Below, in pieces: positions 14,563-20,505 of a stretch of 38,933 nucleotides of DNA. The position numbers were made by a program, and so were the translations under genes. The stretch spans positions 1 to 38,933 of the forward strand of contig CANPDU010000032.1 of assembly GCA_947573135.1 (NCBI GenBank), written 5' to 3'. The notes below the pieces were generated by a model. It was given only the letters and a program-made list of their open reading frames with translations. It had not been told where the DNA came from and made no database searches. Positions within the stretch are counted from its first letter, which is position 1; each line of letters begins with the position of its first letter. The DNA is from an uncultured Bacteroidales bacterium (GTDB taxonomy: Bacteria > Bacteroidota > Bacteroidia > Bacteroidales > Muribaculaceae).

Positions 14563-15558
14563 TCAGGGCACCTGGATTTTATCAAGAATTTCTGTAATGA
14601 TCTCATCAGTAGTGATGTTGTTGGCTTCAGCCTCGTATGTGACACCGATACGGTGACGGAGAACATCATGGCAGACAGCAATAACATCTTCAGGGATCAC
14701 GAAGCCTCTCTGATGGAGGAATGCATAGGCTCTTGCCGCACGTGCAAGACTGATGGATGCACGAGGTGACGCACCGAAGGCGATGATGCTTGTGAGATCG
14801 TCAAGACCGTATTCTGCCGGATAACGTGTGGCAAAAACAATATCGACTATATAGCGCTCGATCTTCTCGTCGACGTAAATCTGCTCTACGATATTCTGTG
14901 CCTCGATGATTTCGTGAGGCTTGACGAGAGCTTCGACTTTGCGCTTTTCGTTGCTGATATTCTGGCGTATGATTACACGTTCTTCATCTTTCGTGGGATA
15001 TCCGATAACGACTTTCATCAGGAAACGGTCTACCTGTGCTTCAGGCAGAGGGTAGGTGCCTTCCTGTTCGATCGGGTTCTGTGTCGCCATGACGAGGAAC
15101 GGTTCGTCAAGGGGAAATGTGTTGTCGCCGATTGTGACCTGACGCTCCTGCATTGCTTCAAGGAGGGCGCTTTGCACTTTTGCCGGGGCTCGGTTTATTT
15201 CATCAGCAAGAACAAAATTGGCGAAAATCGGACCTTTTTTCACTTGGAATTGTTCGCTTTTGACGCTGTAGACCATAGTACCTAAAACGTCGGCCGGAAG
15301 AAGGTCGGGAGTAAACTGTACGCGGCTGTATTTTGCGTCAATCAACTGCGCAAGAGTTTTGATCGCAAGAGTCTTGGCAAGACCCGGAACACCTTCGAGA
15401 AGAACATGACCGTTGGAGAGAAGGGCAATCAGGAGTGATTCGACAAGGTGTTTCTGACCTACGATTGTCTGATCCATACCGTGGGTGATCAGATTGATAA
15501 AATCGCTTTTGCTTGCTACGAGAGCGTTAAGCTCTCTGATGTTTACGGATTCACTCAT
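14563..15558 (-). CDS. moxR: MoxR-family AAA+ ATPase
   Basis: A 331-residue AAA+ ATPase, first gene of the aerotolerance operon. Visible: Walker A GVPGLAKT, Walker B with sensor region (LADEINRAPAKVQSALLEAMQ), the MoxR signature (QERQVTIGD), ATQNPIEQEGTYPLPEAQ with the sensor-1 Asn, arginine-finger region (QVDRFLMK) and a C-terminal lid (GASPRASISLARAARAYAF). MoxR ATPases remodel or activate VWA-containing partners. A -7 box lies about 73 bp upstream of ATG 15558. Confidence 0.95.
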   Translation of the reverse strand: MSESVNIRELNALVASKSDFINLITHGMDQTIVGQKHLVESLLIALLSNGHVLLEGVPGLAKTLAIKTLAQLIDAKYSRVQFTPDLLPADVLGTMVYSVKSEQFQVKKGPIFANFVLADEINRAPAKVQSALLEAMQERQVTIGDNTFPLDEPFLVMATQNPIEQEGTYPLPEAQVDRFLMKVVIGYPTKDEERVIIRQNISNEKRKVEALVKPHEIIEAQNIVEQIYVDEKIERYIVDIVFATRYPAEYGLDDLTSIIAFGASPRASISLARAARAYAFLHQRGFVIPEDVIAVCHDVLRHRIGVTYEAEANNITTDEIITEILDKIQVP

Positions 15559-15630: not shown

Positions 15631-15638
15631 CAAAATTA
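15631..15638 (-). promoter_or_regulatory. -7 element of the moxR-bat operon promoter
   Basis: CAAAATTA on the plus strand is TAATTTTG on the coding strand, an exact TAnnTTTG match. No good TTTG -33 is seen at the usual distance (region about 15655-15662 reads TAAATTAA), so the promoter may be weak or assisted. Transcription would start near 15624, giving a leader of about 65 nt. Confidence 0.45.
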
Positions 15639-15684
15639 CAATTATAACAACGACTAAATTAAAAGGGAGTGTTAATTTTATCTA

Positions 15685-15841: not shown

Positions 15842-16864
15842 TTAGTTATTGAAACGATTGTAAATTTCGCGTCCTATGCGTTTTGCACGGACAAGAGTCT
15901 GTTCAGGAGTCTCACCGTCTGTAAAATCTTCTTTATCAGGGATGATTATTCTGGTGCCGGGCTTTATGCGGTTGGGATTCCCGAGATTATCGGCGTTGGC
16001 TTCGTAGATAAACACCCAATATTCCATCTGTCCGTAATATTTCCGGGCCATAGTCGTGAGAAAACGGGTCGGTGAGATTGTGTCATAAACCACCGGCCTG
16101 TCAACTTCCGCTGGCTTCTCTTCGACAATAACCGTATCCTCCGTCTCCTGAATGATTGTATCCGTGACAGCGGTATTCTTGTCCGACTCGTCGATATCAG
16201 CCGGTACGGGCCGGATGGTTTCATTTGTATCGCCGGATAATGCTTCCTGTATAGGGTTGTGAGAGAAGTAGCCAATAGTCATTCCGACAATAAGTCCGGC
16301 TATAAACATCAATATGCCGATTGTGTTTTTATTGGCGTGGGGCTGATATATCGGCTGTTCTTCGGATTCTTCTGCCTCAGAGTCTACTTCGTCAGTATTT
16401 TCCCGTTGGCCTACTGCAGATGAAACCGTTTCAGGCTGAGGCTTCGTGTCAGTGATCTCAGGCGTTTGAGGTTCTTCAGGCTGCGCAGGTTCAGGGATCG
16501 CATTGATTGCTGAACCTTCTGATTGTTCTGGCATTGCGGTGGCCACAGGCTCCTGACATTGTTGCGCGGCAGTGACAGTCTCGTCGAGTTGCGCGCATCC
16601 GATCGCAACCGGGCTGAACATTTCGAACGGTTCGTTAAGGGCTTGCGAAAGATTTTCATCAGGGACGAAACGGATAGGGCCGTCAGGATTGCCGGTGCGG
16701 AAAAACGATCCTAATCCGTCGACCGAAACGCTGTCGCTCACAGCGAGAGAATCTTCAATATGGGCAAAAAATACTTTTATGAATTTTTCAGACGCAGAGA
16801 GATCGGCAATACCGGTTCGGGCGATTATCTCGGCCAGACGAGGCAATGTTATGATTTCATTCAT
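15842..16864 (-). CDS. HU-like domain joined to a membrane helix and a LysM domain
   Basis: A 340-residue protein with an unusual domain order. Residues 1-90 resemble an HU/IHF monomer (begins MNEIITLPRLAEIIARTG; GLGSFFRTGNP at 50-60 corresponds to the HU GFG turn). Residues about 95-178 are an acidic, Pro/Gln/Glu-rich linker. Residues 182-200 form one membrane helix (IGILMFIAGLIVGMTIGYF). Residues about 203-258 are an acidic extracytoplasmic spacer, and about 259-310 are a LysM module (SPTRFLTTMARKYYGQ; ANADNLGNPNRIKPGTRIIIP). LysM binds peptidoglycan, so the HU end should be cytoplasmic and the LysM periplasmic. Its start overlaps the preceding HU gene by 8 bp. The HU part lacks a long basic beta-arm with the usual RNPxTG motif, so DNA binding is not certain; it may instead pair with the neighbouring HU. 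Confidence 0.85.
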   Translation of the reverse strand: MNEIITLPRLAEIIARTGIADLSASEKFIKVFFAHIEDSLAVSDSVSVDGLGSFFRTGNPDGPIRFVPDENLSQALNEPFEMFSPVAIGCAQLDETVTAAQQCQEPVATAMPEQSEGSAINAIPEPAQPEEPQTPEITDTKPQPETVSSAVGQRENTDEVDSEAEESEEQPIYQPHANKNTIGILMFIAGLIVGMTIGYFSHNPIQEALSGDTNETIRPVPADIDESDKNTAVTDTIIQETEDTVIVEEKPAEVDRPVVYDTISPTRFLTTMARKYYGQMEYWVFIYEANADNLGNPNRIKPGTRIIIPDKEDFTDGETPEQTLVRAKRIGREIYNRFNN

Positions 16865-17135
16865 GGCTGAGACGTTTTTTTAGTTTTGATCCGGGGGAAA
16901 ATGTCAGTTCAATTACGGGGGGATAAAGTTTGGTCTGGCCGTCGGTGTCATCAACGGCAACATACTCATCTTTTTTTATTGAGTCAAACTGTCCGAAACC
17001 AGGAATCGCAACCGCGTCAAGCGAAGAAGCGGCTTCTTTTATGGCGTCAGTCAATGCTTTGACCATAAATTCGGTATTGTTGGTGTCTTTGCCGAGTTGT
17101 CGGGCAAGACCTGAGATAAAAGTCTTATGATCCAT
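16857..17135 (-). CDS. HU-family DNA-binding protein (divergent)
   Basis: A 92-residue HU/IHF-like protein. The helix-rich N-terminus (FISGLARQLGKDTNNTEFMVKALTDAI) and the PGFGQF turn are typical, as is the C-terminal LTFSPGSKLKKRL. The beta-arm region (IKKDEYVAVDDTDGQTKLYP) is acidic and lacks the usual RNPxTG tip, so nucleic-acid binding may differ from classical HU. Its ATG lies inside the end of umuC (11-bp overlap), and its end overlaps the HU/TM/LysM gene by 8 bp, so translation of the three is coupled. It could form a heterodimer with the HU part of the next protein. Confidence 0.88.
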   Translation of the reverse strand: MDHKTFISGLARQLGKDTNNTEFMVKALTDAIKEAASSLDAVAIPGFGQFDSIKKDEYVAVDDTDGQTKLYPPVIELTFSPGSKLKKRLSHE

Positions 17136-18399
17136 GATTGCAATTTATTGTGATTATGTCGGAGAGGCGTGTCGAGAAGAGCCGTGACGGTTTTTCTCTG
17201 CGCACAAAGTTGTCGATGGGGCTGTAGGAGCCAGAGTGGACTGTGTCGTGGCCGATGGTGCAACGGTTTATCGAGTCCACAGTTTCCATGAGTCTTCGCC
17301 GTCGCTCGCGGTCGGCGGGATTGCTGAAAAGCGATTGTTGAATATGATTGCTGTCGGTCAACTCGCTGATCATCAGGCCGGCTTTCTTATAGGCGAATCC
17401 TTTTCTGAAAATAGACCGTAAGGCGTCAGTAGCAGCGGCGGTAATGGTTAACGTGTCAGCGGTCGGTTCGGATAATGTGCGGTGGGCAGTATTATAATAC
17501 TGCGGTAGATCAGAACGAAAGCCATCGGTATACAGAAACACTGACAGCGACACAGCGCATAGAGACCGTTCGCGCATTTTCCGGCCGACAGTACTTGCAA
17601 ATGCAGCTACAGCTGCGGCTAAATCGTCAAACGTAGTTAAAAATTTGCCAAAAGAGCGGGAGCACATCATCTGTTTCTGCTGGTCATCCGGCTCGAAGCC
17701 GATACATGGAGATCCATTAAGTTCCATCCATGTCTTTTTTCCGGATACGTTAAACAGATCCTCGACAGCATCAACAGGCAGATCAGCCAGCTGTAGACCT
17801 GTTATTATACCATGATCGTTTAATTTGCGGCTGAGACGTCGCCCGACGCCCCATATTTCTCTGAGGGGAGTGAGTTCGAGGGCTTTACGACGCTTCTCTT
17901 CGTTGTCGATCACGCAGCATGACCGATAGCCGGGATACTTTTTTGCAAATCGGGCCGCTACTTTAGCGAGTGTTCTGGTTTCTGCGATGCCGAGTGATGT
18001 AGGTATGCCGGTAAAGCGGCGTACTTTCCTTACGATGTCGCGTCCTGTCGACTGGAGAGTTGATCTGTCGAATGTTTCAAAATGAAGAAACGCTTCATCT
18101 ATAGAATAAATGTCGATTTCTGGGACAATTGCCGACAGAACAGCCATTACTCTTGTCGACATGTCGCCATAAAGTTTATGGTTTCCAGAATAGATCTCGA
18201 TGCCATAAGCATTACAGGCTCCTTTGATTTTGAAATACGGATCGCCGCGTTTCACTCCAAGAGCTTTCGCCTCATTGGATATGGCAACCGCACAGCCGTC
18301 GTTATTGCTGAATACAATCACCGGCTTAGTGCGTACGGCCGGATTAAAAACCCTTTCGCACGACACAAAAAAATTATTACAGTCGATCAGTCCTATCAT
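17125..18399 (-). CDS. umuC: Translesion DNA polymerase V subunit UmuC
   Basis: A 424-residue Y-family polymerase. It shows the N-terminal DCNNFFVSCERVF with the first metal-binding Asp, the catalytic YSIDEAF, the helix-hairpin-helix-like VGRRLSRKLNDHGI, and a C-terminal clamp-binding motif QQSLF (about 354-358). It would copy over damaged bases with two UmuD' subunits. ATG 18399 gives the normal start MIGLIDCNNFF; the longer frame starts with TTG 18420 and adds seven residues without support. The gap to umuD is 41 bp. The end overlaps the HU gene by 11 bp. Confidence 0.93.
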   Translation of the reverse strand: MIGLIDCNNFFVSCERVFNPAVRTKPVIVFSNNDGCAVAISNEAKALGVKRGDPYFKIKGACNAYGIEIYSGNHKLYGDMSTRVMAVLSAIVPEIDIYSIDEAFLHFETFDRSTLQSTGRDIVRKVRRFTGIPTSLGIAETRTLAKVAARFAKKYPGYRSCCVIDNEEKRRKALELTPLREIWGVGRRLSRKLNDHGIITGLQLADLPVDAVEDLFNVSGKKTWMELNGSPCIGFEPDDQQKQMMCSRSFGKFLTTFDDLAAAVAAFASTVGRKMRERSLCAVSLSVFLYTDGFRSDLPQYYNTAHRTLSEPTADTLTITAAATDALRSIFRKGFAYKKAGLMISELTDSNHIQQSLFSNPADRERRRRLMETVDSINRCTIGHDTVHSGSYSPIDNFVRREKPSRLFSTRLSDIITINCNHGS

Positions 18400-18440
18400 T
18401 ATCCATATTTTATTAAACAAGCCCTAAATAAGGATAAGAC

Positions 18441-18926
18441 TCAATAGTTAGTGTGACGTTTTTTTCGGGGTCGGCGATTTTGTTTGATGGTGTATGTGAC
18501 CACTCCCCATATCTCGAAACGCTTGTCGGGCGTGACAAGTATCGGATCGAAAGTCTCGTTGGACGGAATTAGCCATACACGGTCGTGCTCGAGTTTTATG
18601 CGTTTTAACGTAAATTCCCCGTCAATACAGCATACCGACAAGTCCCCGTCGACTGGTTCTATCGAGCGGTCGATTACGAGAATGTCTCCCGTTTCGATGC
18701 CTTCGTCGATCATTGAATCACCCTCGACTCTGCCGTAAAAAGTAGCTGCCGGATGTCTGATAATCTCACGGTTGAGATCGATCGATTCGTTTATGTAATC
18801 CTGAGCCGGGGAGGGGAAGCCGGCCTGAATGCCATTGTCGGCATATGGCAGCGCCAACGAGCTTGACACGTCGGCGCTGAATATGTCGATATGGGCTGAT
18901 GTGCTATGTCCGGAGGAGTCAGGCAC
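18441..18926 (-). CDS. umuD: UmuD, self-cleaving LexA-like subunit of Pol V
   Basis: A 161-residue S24 peptidase. The cleavage site A35-G36 lies in QAGFPSPAQDY, the nucleophile is S71 in GDSMID, and the general base is K108 in EFTLKR. The longer N-terminal arm (35 residues before the cleavage site, against about 24 in E. coli) is polar and Ser-rich. RecA-stimulated cleavage would yield UmuD'. The ATG is only 4 bp from the proS stop, so it is read through from proS unless a promoter lies inside proS; I did not find a clear LexA-type palindrome or TAnnTTTG there. Confidence 0.93.
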   Translation of the reverse strand: MPDSSGHSTSAHIDIFSADVSSSLALPYADNGIQAGFPSPAQDYINESIDLNREIIRHPAATFYGRVEGDSMIDEGIETGDILVIDRSIEPVDGDLSVCCIDGEFTLKRIKLEHDRVWLIPSNETFDPILVTPDKRFEIWGVVTYTIKQNRRPRKKRHTNY

Positions 18927-18930
18927 GGAT

Positions 18931-20412
18931 TTAATAATTACGGGCGATGATCACGCGACGGGCCGAAGGCTTGCCTGTGACCATACATACACCGGGTGTG
19001 TCATCACCGTCAAGAGGGATGCAGCGTATGGTCGCTTTTGTTTCTTCTTTGATGCGCTCTTCGGTCTCTGTCGTGCCGTCCCAGTGACAAAGGAAGAAAC
19101 CTCCGTCTTCGATTTTTTCCTTGAATTCGTCATAGGAGTCGCAGATATAAGTTTTCTCGTTGCGCATCTTGAGAGCCTTCTGGTAGATATTGTTTTGGAT
19201 ATCTTCAAGAAGAGTGTTGATCTGGTCTGCGATGCCGGCGAGGGGAAGTGTTTCTTTCTCAAGTGTATCGCGTCGCATCAGTTCGACTGTTCCGTTCTCG
19301 AGATCTCTGGCACCGATAGCCAGACGTACAGGAACACCCTTGAGCTCGTAGTCTGCGAATTTGAAACCTGGGCGTTTGTTGTCGGCATCGTCATATTTCA
19401 CACTGATGCCGAGCTCACGCAGACGCTCAATGATCGGGAGCACTTTGTCGGTGATAGCGGCGAGTTGTTCGGCATTTTTAGAGATAGGAATGATCACAAC
19501 CTGAATCGGAGCAAGATGGGGAGGAAGAACAAGACCGTTGTCATCGGAATGGGTCATGATGAGAGCTCCCATCAGTCTGGTTGAGACGCCCCATGAATTT
19601 GCCCAGACATATTCTGGCTTGTTGTCCTTATTGGCAAATGTAACATCAAATGCTTTCGCAAAATTCTGGCCGAGATTGTGGGATGTTCCCGACTGCAGAG
19701 CTTTACCGTCCTGCATCATGGCTTCAATGGTGTAGGTGTTGAGTGCGCCGGCAAAACGTTCGTTAGCGCTCTTGACGCCTTTGATCACAGGCATCGCCAT
19801 GTATTTTTTGGCAAATTCAGCATAGAGATTGATCATCTGGACGGTACGAGCCTCAGACTCTTCGGCTGTGGCATGGGCGCAATGGCCTTCCTGCCAAAGG
19901 AACTCGGCTGTACGCAGGAATATGCGGGTGCGCATTTCCCAGCGCATCACATTGGCCCATTGATTGCAAAGGATGGGGAGATCGCGGTAGCTGTGAATCC
20001 AGTTCTTATATGTGCCCCATATAATAGTTTCTGATGTAGGACGCACGATAAGTTCTTCTTCGAGGCGCGCATCCGGATCGACAACTACTCCGTTGCCGTT
20101 GGGGTCATTCTTCAGACGATAGTGGGTTACAACGGCACATTCTTTAGCAAAACCTTCGACATGCTCGGCTTCGCGGCAAAGGAATGATTTCGGGATCAGC
20201 AGCGGGAAATAAGCGTTTTGCACACCTGTTTCCTTGAACATGCGGTCGAGGGTCTGTTGCATCTTTTCCCAGATTGCATATCCGTAGGGTTTTATCACCA
20301 TACAGCCGCGCACAGCCGACTGCTCGGCAAGATCGGCTTTGACGACGAGTTCGTTATACCACTGTGAATAATTGTCCTTGCGCTTGGTAAGGCCTTTTAG
20401 TTCGATTGCCAT
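18931..20412 (-). CDS. proS: Prolyl-tRNA synthetase, archaeal/eukaryotic-type
   Basis: A 493-residue class II aminoacyl-tRNA synthetase that charges tRNA-Pro. The short form without the bacterial editing insertion is typical of the ProS type 3 used by Bacteroidota. Visible: motif 2 region ([25 protein letters not shown]), [10 protein letters not shown], motif 3 ([12 protein letters not shown]), the anticodon-binding domain ([33 protein letters not shown]) and the C-terminal zinc-free end RRVIIARNY. Preceded by a strong promoter and followed 4 bp later by umuD. Confidence 0.96.
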
Positions 20413-20474: not shown

Positions 20475-20505
20475 CAAAGTTACGAAATACTTTTATCTCA
20501 GCAAA
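20475..20505 (-). promoter_or_regulatory. Promoter of proS-umuDC-HU operon
   Basis: On the coding strand TAACTTTG (CAAAGTTA at 20475-20482 on plus) matches the -7 consensus, and TTTG (CAAA at 20502-20505) matches -33; the spacer is 19 bp. The leader to the proS ATG is about 55-60 nt. This is one of the best promoter matches in the window and is the only clear one found for the run down to 15842. Confidence 0.7.

Follow-up and report, generated by a model that had tools for sequence, protein, structure and literature searches.

Membrane-anchored HU proteins are reportedly an established design in Bacteroidota, Burroughs et al. (2017, Cell Cycle) being said to have described proteins in which tandem HU-type domains are joined through a transmembrane (TM) helix to a SPOR domain. 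These tandem-HU/TM/SPOR proteins (PF18174, HU-CCDC81_bac_1; PF18175, HU-CCDC81_bac_2; SPOR, PF05036) are the closest known kind to the two-gene unit that we describe here, which lies in a 38,933-nucleotide stretch of DNA (the window; contig CANPDU010000032.1 of assembly GCA_947573135.1) from an uncultured Bacteroidales bacterium of the family Muribaculaceae. The unit consists of a gene for an HU protein and a gene for a protein with an HU-like head, a TM helix, and a LysM domain. To our knowledge, the holding and segregation of chromosomes has been little studied in Bacteroidota, and a two-gene HU unit predicted to reach across the inner membrane as far as the wall is a direct candidate to link nucleoid and envelope. 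An earlier note on this DNA had proposed just such a tether, coproduced with DNA polymerase V (Pol V). Our analysis leans, if not strongly, toward another view, namely, that the window unit is an envelope-anchored HU-fold protein scaffold rather than an HU-type DNA clamp and that it is derived from a nucleoid tether.

Results

On the reverse strand of the window, which carries every window feature located below, umuD, umuC, the HU gene (16857..17135; 92 aa), and the HU-head/TM/LysM gene (15842..16864; 340 aa) follow one another. Our reading of the open reading frames (ORFs) bore out this order, as well as the overlaps given in the earlier note (11 bp between umuC and the HU gene and 8 bp between the HU and LysM genes). 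The conserved unit is the pair formed by the last two genes. In all 81 family loci that we read (the window plus 80 of the 127 other matching genomes, mostly the better-scoring ones), the HU gene adjoins the HU/TM/LysM gene on the same strand, and it also adjoins it in 27 of 35 loci from other Bacteroidales families (34 genomes, taken from the stronger matches among 198 genomes of the order). The HU/TM/LysM protein itself is matched in 128 of 149 Muribaculaceae genomes, in 107 of the 110 good genomes, and in all 30 genera. At the level of the order, a profile search gave matches in 190 of the 198 genomes at an expectation value (E) of 0.001, many of them HU proteins found through the head alone; across the phylum, 39 of 296 genomes match at 1e-12. 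That the gene order might be confined to the window genome was rejected, as umuDC-HU-LysM recurs in three genera (g1, g5, and g10) and HU-LysM recurs across the order. Of the umuC-HU-HU/LysM arrangement, the last two genes recur widely among Bacteroidales and at one locus in another class, and umuC is present at 12 of the 81 family loci.

The domains that had been read from the sequence of the larger protein are real, as judged by AlphaFold2 modeling and fold comparison. Its head (residues 1 to 80; 16625..16864) has the HU fold of two helices, a beta saddle, and a C-terminal helix, and is acidic, with an isoelectric point (pI) of 4.4 over residues 1 to 92. An acidic, proline-rich linker leads to a TM helix at residues 181 to 201 (16262..16324; helical in the AlphaFold2 model, with a hydropathy of 2.2), and a strong hydrophobic helix is found in all 81 family members and in all 35 members from other families. 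Past this helix, residues 256 to 312 (15929..16099) form the beta-alpha-alpha-beta fold of LysM, and the LysM/Kbp model NF008399 matches at an E of 2.5e-6 (28 bits, under its cut-off). Lysine and arginine are commoner N-terminal to the helix than after it in 72 of the 81 family members (the reverse holds in 1, with 8 ties). By the positive-inside rule, this fits the orientation suggested earlier, in which the head would be cytoplasmic and the LysM domain periplasmic; the fold of the latter points to peptidoglycan binding. This wall-tether architecture is widespread. The wall anchor is not universal, since 6 of the 81 family members (L092, L099, L100, L105, L108, and L110, of genera g8 and g24) have lost LysM and stop shortly past the helix.

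The partner HU protein passes the gathering score of PF00216 (43.7 bits versus a cut-off of 22.4). Its pI is 5.6, compared with 9.9 and 9.5 for the two HU proteins encoded elsewhere in the genome. Two relatives (L146:1570-2847 and L149:6912-8258) naturally encode the partner and the HU/TM/LysM protein as a single ORF, from which it seems that the HU protein and the head each supply one half of an HU-type dimer. The AlphaFold2 model of a fused relative aligns over both domains with single-chain IHF and has an IHF-like pairing. A PDB search by sequence gave four weak matches, at an E of 0.055 or worse. An assembly error as the source of the HU/LysM split is countered by the two fused ORFs, which are 59% identical to each other and lie on separate contigs, and from which we argue that the split and fused forms are both real.

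Canonical HU grips DNA through an arm bearing the motif R-x3-N-P. In the window head, 22 residues separate the G-x-F turn from the N-x-P-F motif, a spacing that is usually 39 residues in arm-bearing heads and mostly 19 to 24 in arm-less ones; in the AlphaFold2 model, a strand at residues 52 to 56 is followed by a short turn and a strand at 64 to 68, with no DNA-binding beta arm. The window partner has Y-x3-D-D where HU has R-x3-N-P. Within the family, 59 of the 78 heads parsed are arm-less, while 4 of the 28 parsed from other families are short (parsing failed for 5 of the 108 partners and 10 of the 116 heads). In the family, an R-x3-N/H-P motif is found in the partner at 17 of 19 loci with arm-bearing heads and at none of 59 with arm-less heads; the corresponding counts in other families are 21 of 23 and 0 of 3 (these cover 78 of the 81 loci in the family and 26 of the 27 outside it, and one arm-bearing row, L078, with 31 residues, is probably misparsed). 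An aspartate or glutamate replaces the arm asparagine of HU in 53 of the 78 parsed family partners. Given an arm-less head and a partner that lacks R-x3-N/H-P, HU-type DNA clamping is doubtful in the window's clade, and so, as far as sequence features go, is the DNA binding on which the earlier proposal depended.

A tree of MoxR and DUF58 proteins was built from 69 of 108 loci, these being the loci in which MoxR was found and the head was parsed, with L078 removed by hand. Its 44 arm-less rows form one clade (support, 100/99) beside a nine-row clade of arm-bearing family members (98/96), and arm loss in the family was thus essentially one event. The arm-less loci L130, L132, and L134 of other families, which are outside this tree, suggest further losses. 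At L259, a locus of a different class in the phylum, the head carries ARTGVNPRTGEPI, the partner gene overlaps by 4 bp, and both proteins match PF00216, features that suggest an older, DNA-gripping state.

It could be argued that the pair is a working nucleoid-envelope tether in the window genome too, where it might still hold DNA by way of the partner's arm or by recruiting the canonical HU of the genome, with LysM fixing it to the wall. The architecture, topology, and conservation of the unit speak for this, as do the arm residues retained in the sister clade and in other families (fully so in L259), the median pI of 8.8 of the family partners, and a tandem-HU/TM/SPOR protein in the same genome, which makes membrane-anchored HU pairs a recurring design. 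However, the acidic, arm-less head of the window, its acidic partner devoid of the motif, the acidic replacements common among family partners, and the members without LysM all run counter to it. We regard this possibility as unlikely, albeit the most serious of those considered here, and for the window genome the envelope scaffold is the likelier of the two.

The earlier coupling to Pol V arose from the two genes upstream, umuC (17125..18420, with the ATG at 18399 the likelier start) and umuD (18441..18926, with a GTG start). The former encodes the Pol V catalytic subunit, with IMS and IMS_C domains, and matches the UmuC model at 353 bits, under its cut-off of 431; the latter matches NF007621 at 159.8 bits, above its cut-off. 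The window has the arrangement of a umuDC operon, an S24 peptidase UmuD adjoining a Y-family UmuC. One might suppose, then, that this is a damage-induced module in which Pol V and an HU-based anchor for repair sites are made together after DNA damage, a notion to which we give very little credence. It draws on the finding that umuC runs 1 to 11 bp into the HU gene at 5 of the 12 loci with umuDC (11 bp in the window and L033 and 1 bp in three others), but the remaining 7 have gaps of 10 to 100 bp. The coordinates of umuC and HU also share 11 bp at the loci L151, L157, and L192. It draws too on the clustering of locus proteins in a UmuC tree of 36 rows, 17 at the locus and 19 elsewhere, which needs three label changes and is compatible with a single origin (19 of 20 off-locus loci were used, L253 being too short, and removal of identical rows reduced 41 to 36). 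The rarity of umuC at family loci counts against such a module, and none of the 35 loci read outside the family showed a UmuC. A UmuC relative (E of 1e-60) occurs somewhere in 105 of the 149 family genomes (85 of the 110 good ones), so that it lies elsewhere in most of the genomes read. Membership of umuDC in the unit was rejected on its presence at 12 of 81 loci, only one locus (L088) having less than 1 kb read 5′ of HU. A recent mobile arrival of umuDC also was considered; judged from the UmuC tree, an old local insertion with losses is equally likely.

Transcription signals point the same way. umuD begins 4 bp after proS (18931..20412; ORF reading and Pfam), probably the first gene of the transcription unit, and the sole perfect match to a Bacteroidota promoter (TTTG-N19-TAACTTTG; 20475..20505; 0 mismatches) lies upstream of proS. 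Nothing here, therefore, supports damage-specific coexpression. Between this promoter and a promoter-like match with one mismatch (15631..15663, between the LysM gene and moxR), the two other sites with at most one mismatch lie within proS and within umuC, so that these are the only such sites from the proS promoter to the LysM stop. Weak promoter sites mean little, as the scan returned 17 sites with up to two mismatches where mononucleotide shuffles gave 6.8 on average; scans for sigma-70 promoters and terminators were at shuffle level (7 versus 7.4 and 5 versus 5.9, respectively).

Some variant arrangements were seen around these genes. At L149:5941-6900, a gene for a family-2 glycosyltransferase separates proS from the fused gene. 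proS and umuD are about 1 kb apart at 9 of the 12 loci that have umuDC, and this gap may hold a glycosyltransferase gene of the same type. At L155:3007-6730, umuDC lies 5′ of the HU/LysM pair, separated from it by 3.7 kb of other sequence. In the sister genus g3, UmuC and a DUF5686 region occupy one ORF of about 1,200 aa (L237:122-3727; also L240 and L246); Pfam finds IMS and DUF5686 in L237, and open frames of 1,198 to 1,214 aa occur in five genomes.

Downstream of the pair lies moxR (14563..15558; ORF reading and Pfam) of a MoxR-DUF58-Bat cluster. A moxR neighbor is found in 56 of the 81 family loci, as well as in many of those read outside the family, and the HU pair might thus be an envelope partner that docks a MoxR/VWA machine to the wall. 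We consider this improbable: a 283-bp gap and the separate promoter-like site precede moxR, 25 of the 81 family loci have no moxR within the stretch read, and the upstream neighbors in several other families are ftsY and rimO. Loci there have the order ftsY-rimO-HU-HU/TM/LysM-moxR-DUF58-Bat or parts of it, ftsY and rimO having been identified from L112 and L125 and assigned in the remaining loci from size and place.

Discussion

In the explanation that we favor, the HU protein (16857-17135) would form the functional unit with the HU-head/TM/LysM protein (15842-16864). On the cytoplasmic side of the inner membrane, their HU domains would pair as an HU/IHF-type pseudo-dimer, the single predicted helix would span the membrane, and LysM would hold peptidoglycan in the periplasm. 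In other Bacteroidales families, in the sister clade within the family, and at the one locus from another class, head and partner retain arm residues that HU uses to grip DNA, and a chromosome-to-wall tether is therefore plausible in these relatives. In the main family clade, which includes the window, the arm features are absent from both halves while the pairing domains and the membrane helix are kept, so that an HU-fold envelope scaffold, and not an HU-type DNA clamp, is most likely here. umuDC would have joined this transcription unit locally, with its transcription probably starting at the proS promoter, and would stand outside the mechanism.

Several observations weigh against this account. 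The LysM domain stays under the gathering score of PF01476 (14.6 bits versus a cut-off of 20.9). Outside the family, the positive-inside pattern is weaker (22 of 35 for, 9 reversed, and 4 ties), and no partner gene was found at 4 of the 35 loci (L140, L141, L143, and L145), where a fused partner was not searched for. The pairing argument leans on a model of the fused relative with a low predicted template modeling score (pTM, 0.43), in which parts of domain 1 have per-residue confidence (pLDDT) values of 65 to 76; moreover, AlphaFold2 knows HU dimers, so the modeled pairing is not independent evidence. Since arm loss was essentially one event, the Fisher value overstates the association of arm and motif within the family. 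Finally, the window partner retains an arm of HU length and a basic C terminus which, with the basic median pI of family partners, make weak or different DNA contacts possible.

A broader and more tentative idea, to which we give somewhat less than even weight, is that Muribaculaceae turned an old nucleoid-to-wall tether, which had gripped DNA by both its arms, into a DNA-free HU-fold envelope scaffold. Close to the root of the main clade, both halves of the dimer would have lost the gripping features, and two genera would later have lost the wall domain as well. If so, one locus provides matched natural variants that have or lack the arms and that have or lack the wall anchor. A clade without DNA-gripping features in any case allows a nucleoid-envelope role to be tested by comparison.

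Like the window unit, the tandem-HU/TM/SPOR proteins combine two HU-type domains in series with a membrane helix and a putative wall-binding domain in the periplasm, whereas the window unit is divided between two genes and has LysM instead of SPOR. The partner HU reaches 13.8 bits against PF18174 (cut-off, 26), neither window protein matches PF18175 in a search at an E of 0.1, and Pfam finds no SPOR domain in the window proteins, which have the LysM fold instead. The unit would work like the tandem-HU/TM/SPOR design but does not qualify as a member under Pfam. The same genome encodes a member (L236:7464-8477; PF18174, 83.4 bits; PF18175, 40.4 bits; SPOR, 32.4 bits), and among 41 genomes searched, 37 match PF18174.

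A literature search gave, among the matches listed, no paper on an HU-LysM protein. Passages of PMC10434189, in which BT0577, a LysM protein of Bacteroides thetaiotaomicron, and an HU protein are listed, have no bearing on an HU-LysM unit, nor do passages of PMC13114119. As for Pol V (UmuD′2C), the window umuD and umuC carry its family domains and are ordinary members, lineage-specific neighbors of the HU pair. The likeness to HU/IHF (PF00216) lies in the fold of the head, the sequence family of the partner, and the IHF-like pairing in the fused-relative model; unlike HU/IHF, the window unit is membrane anchored, and in its clade the head has no arm and the partner no arm motif. With the CCDC81-type tandem HU proteins of ciliary doublets (8snb_1K, which we take to be a CCDC81 homologue) and with chain T of the Mycoplasma mobile G1-ATPase structure 9io5, the likeness is in fold only. 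Tetrahymena IJ34 is named as a CCDC81 homologue in PMC10105768. The window unit suggests a bacterial HU pair moving toward a structural role, such as the tandem HU proteins of cilia appear to have.
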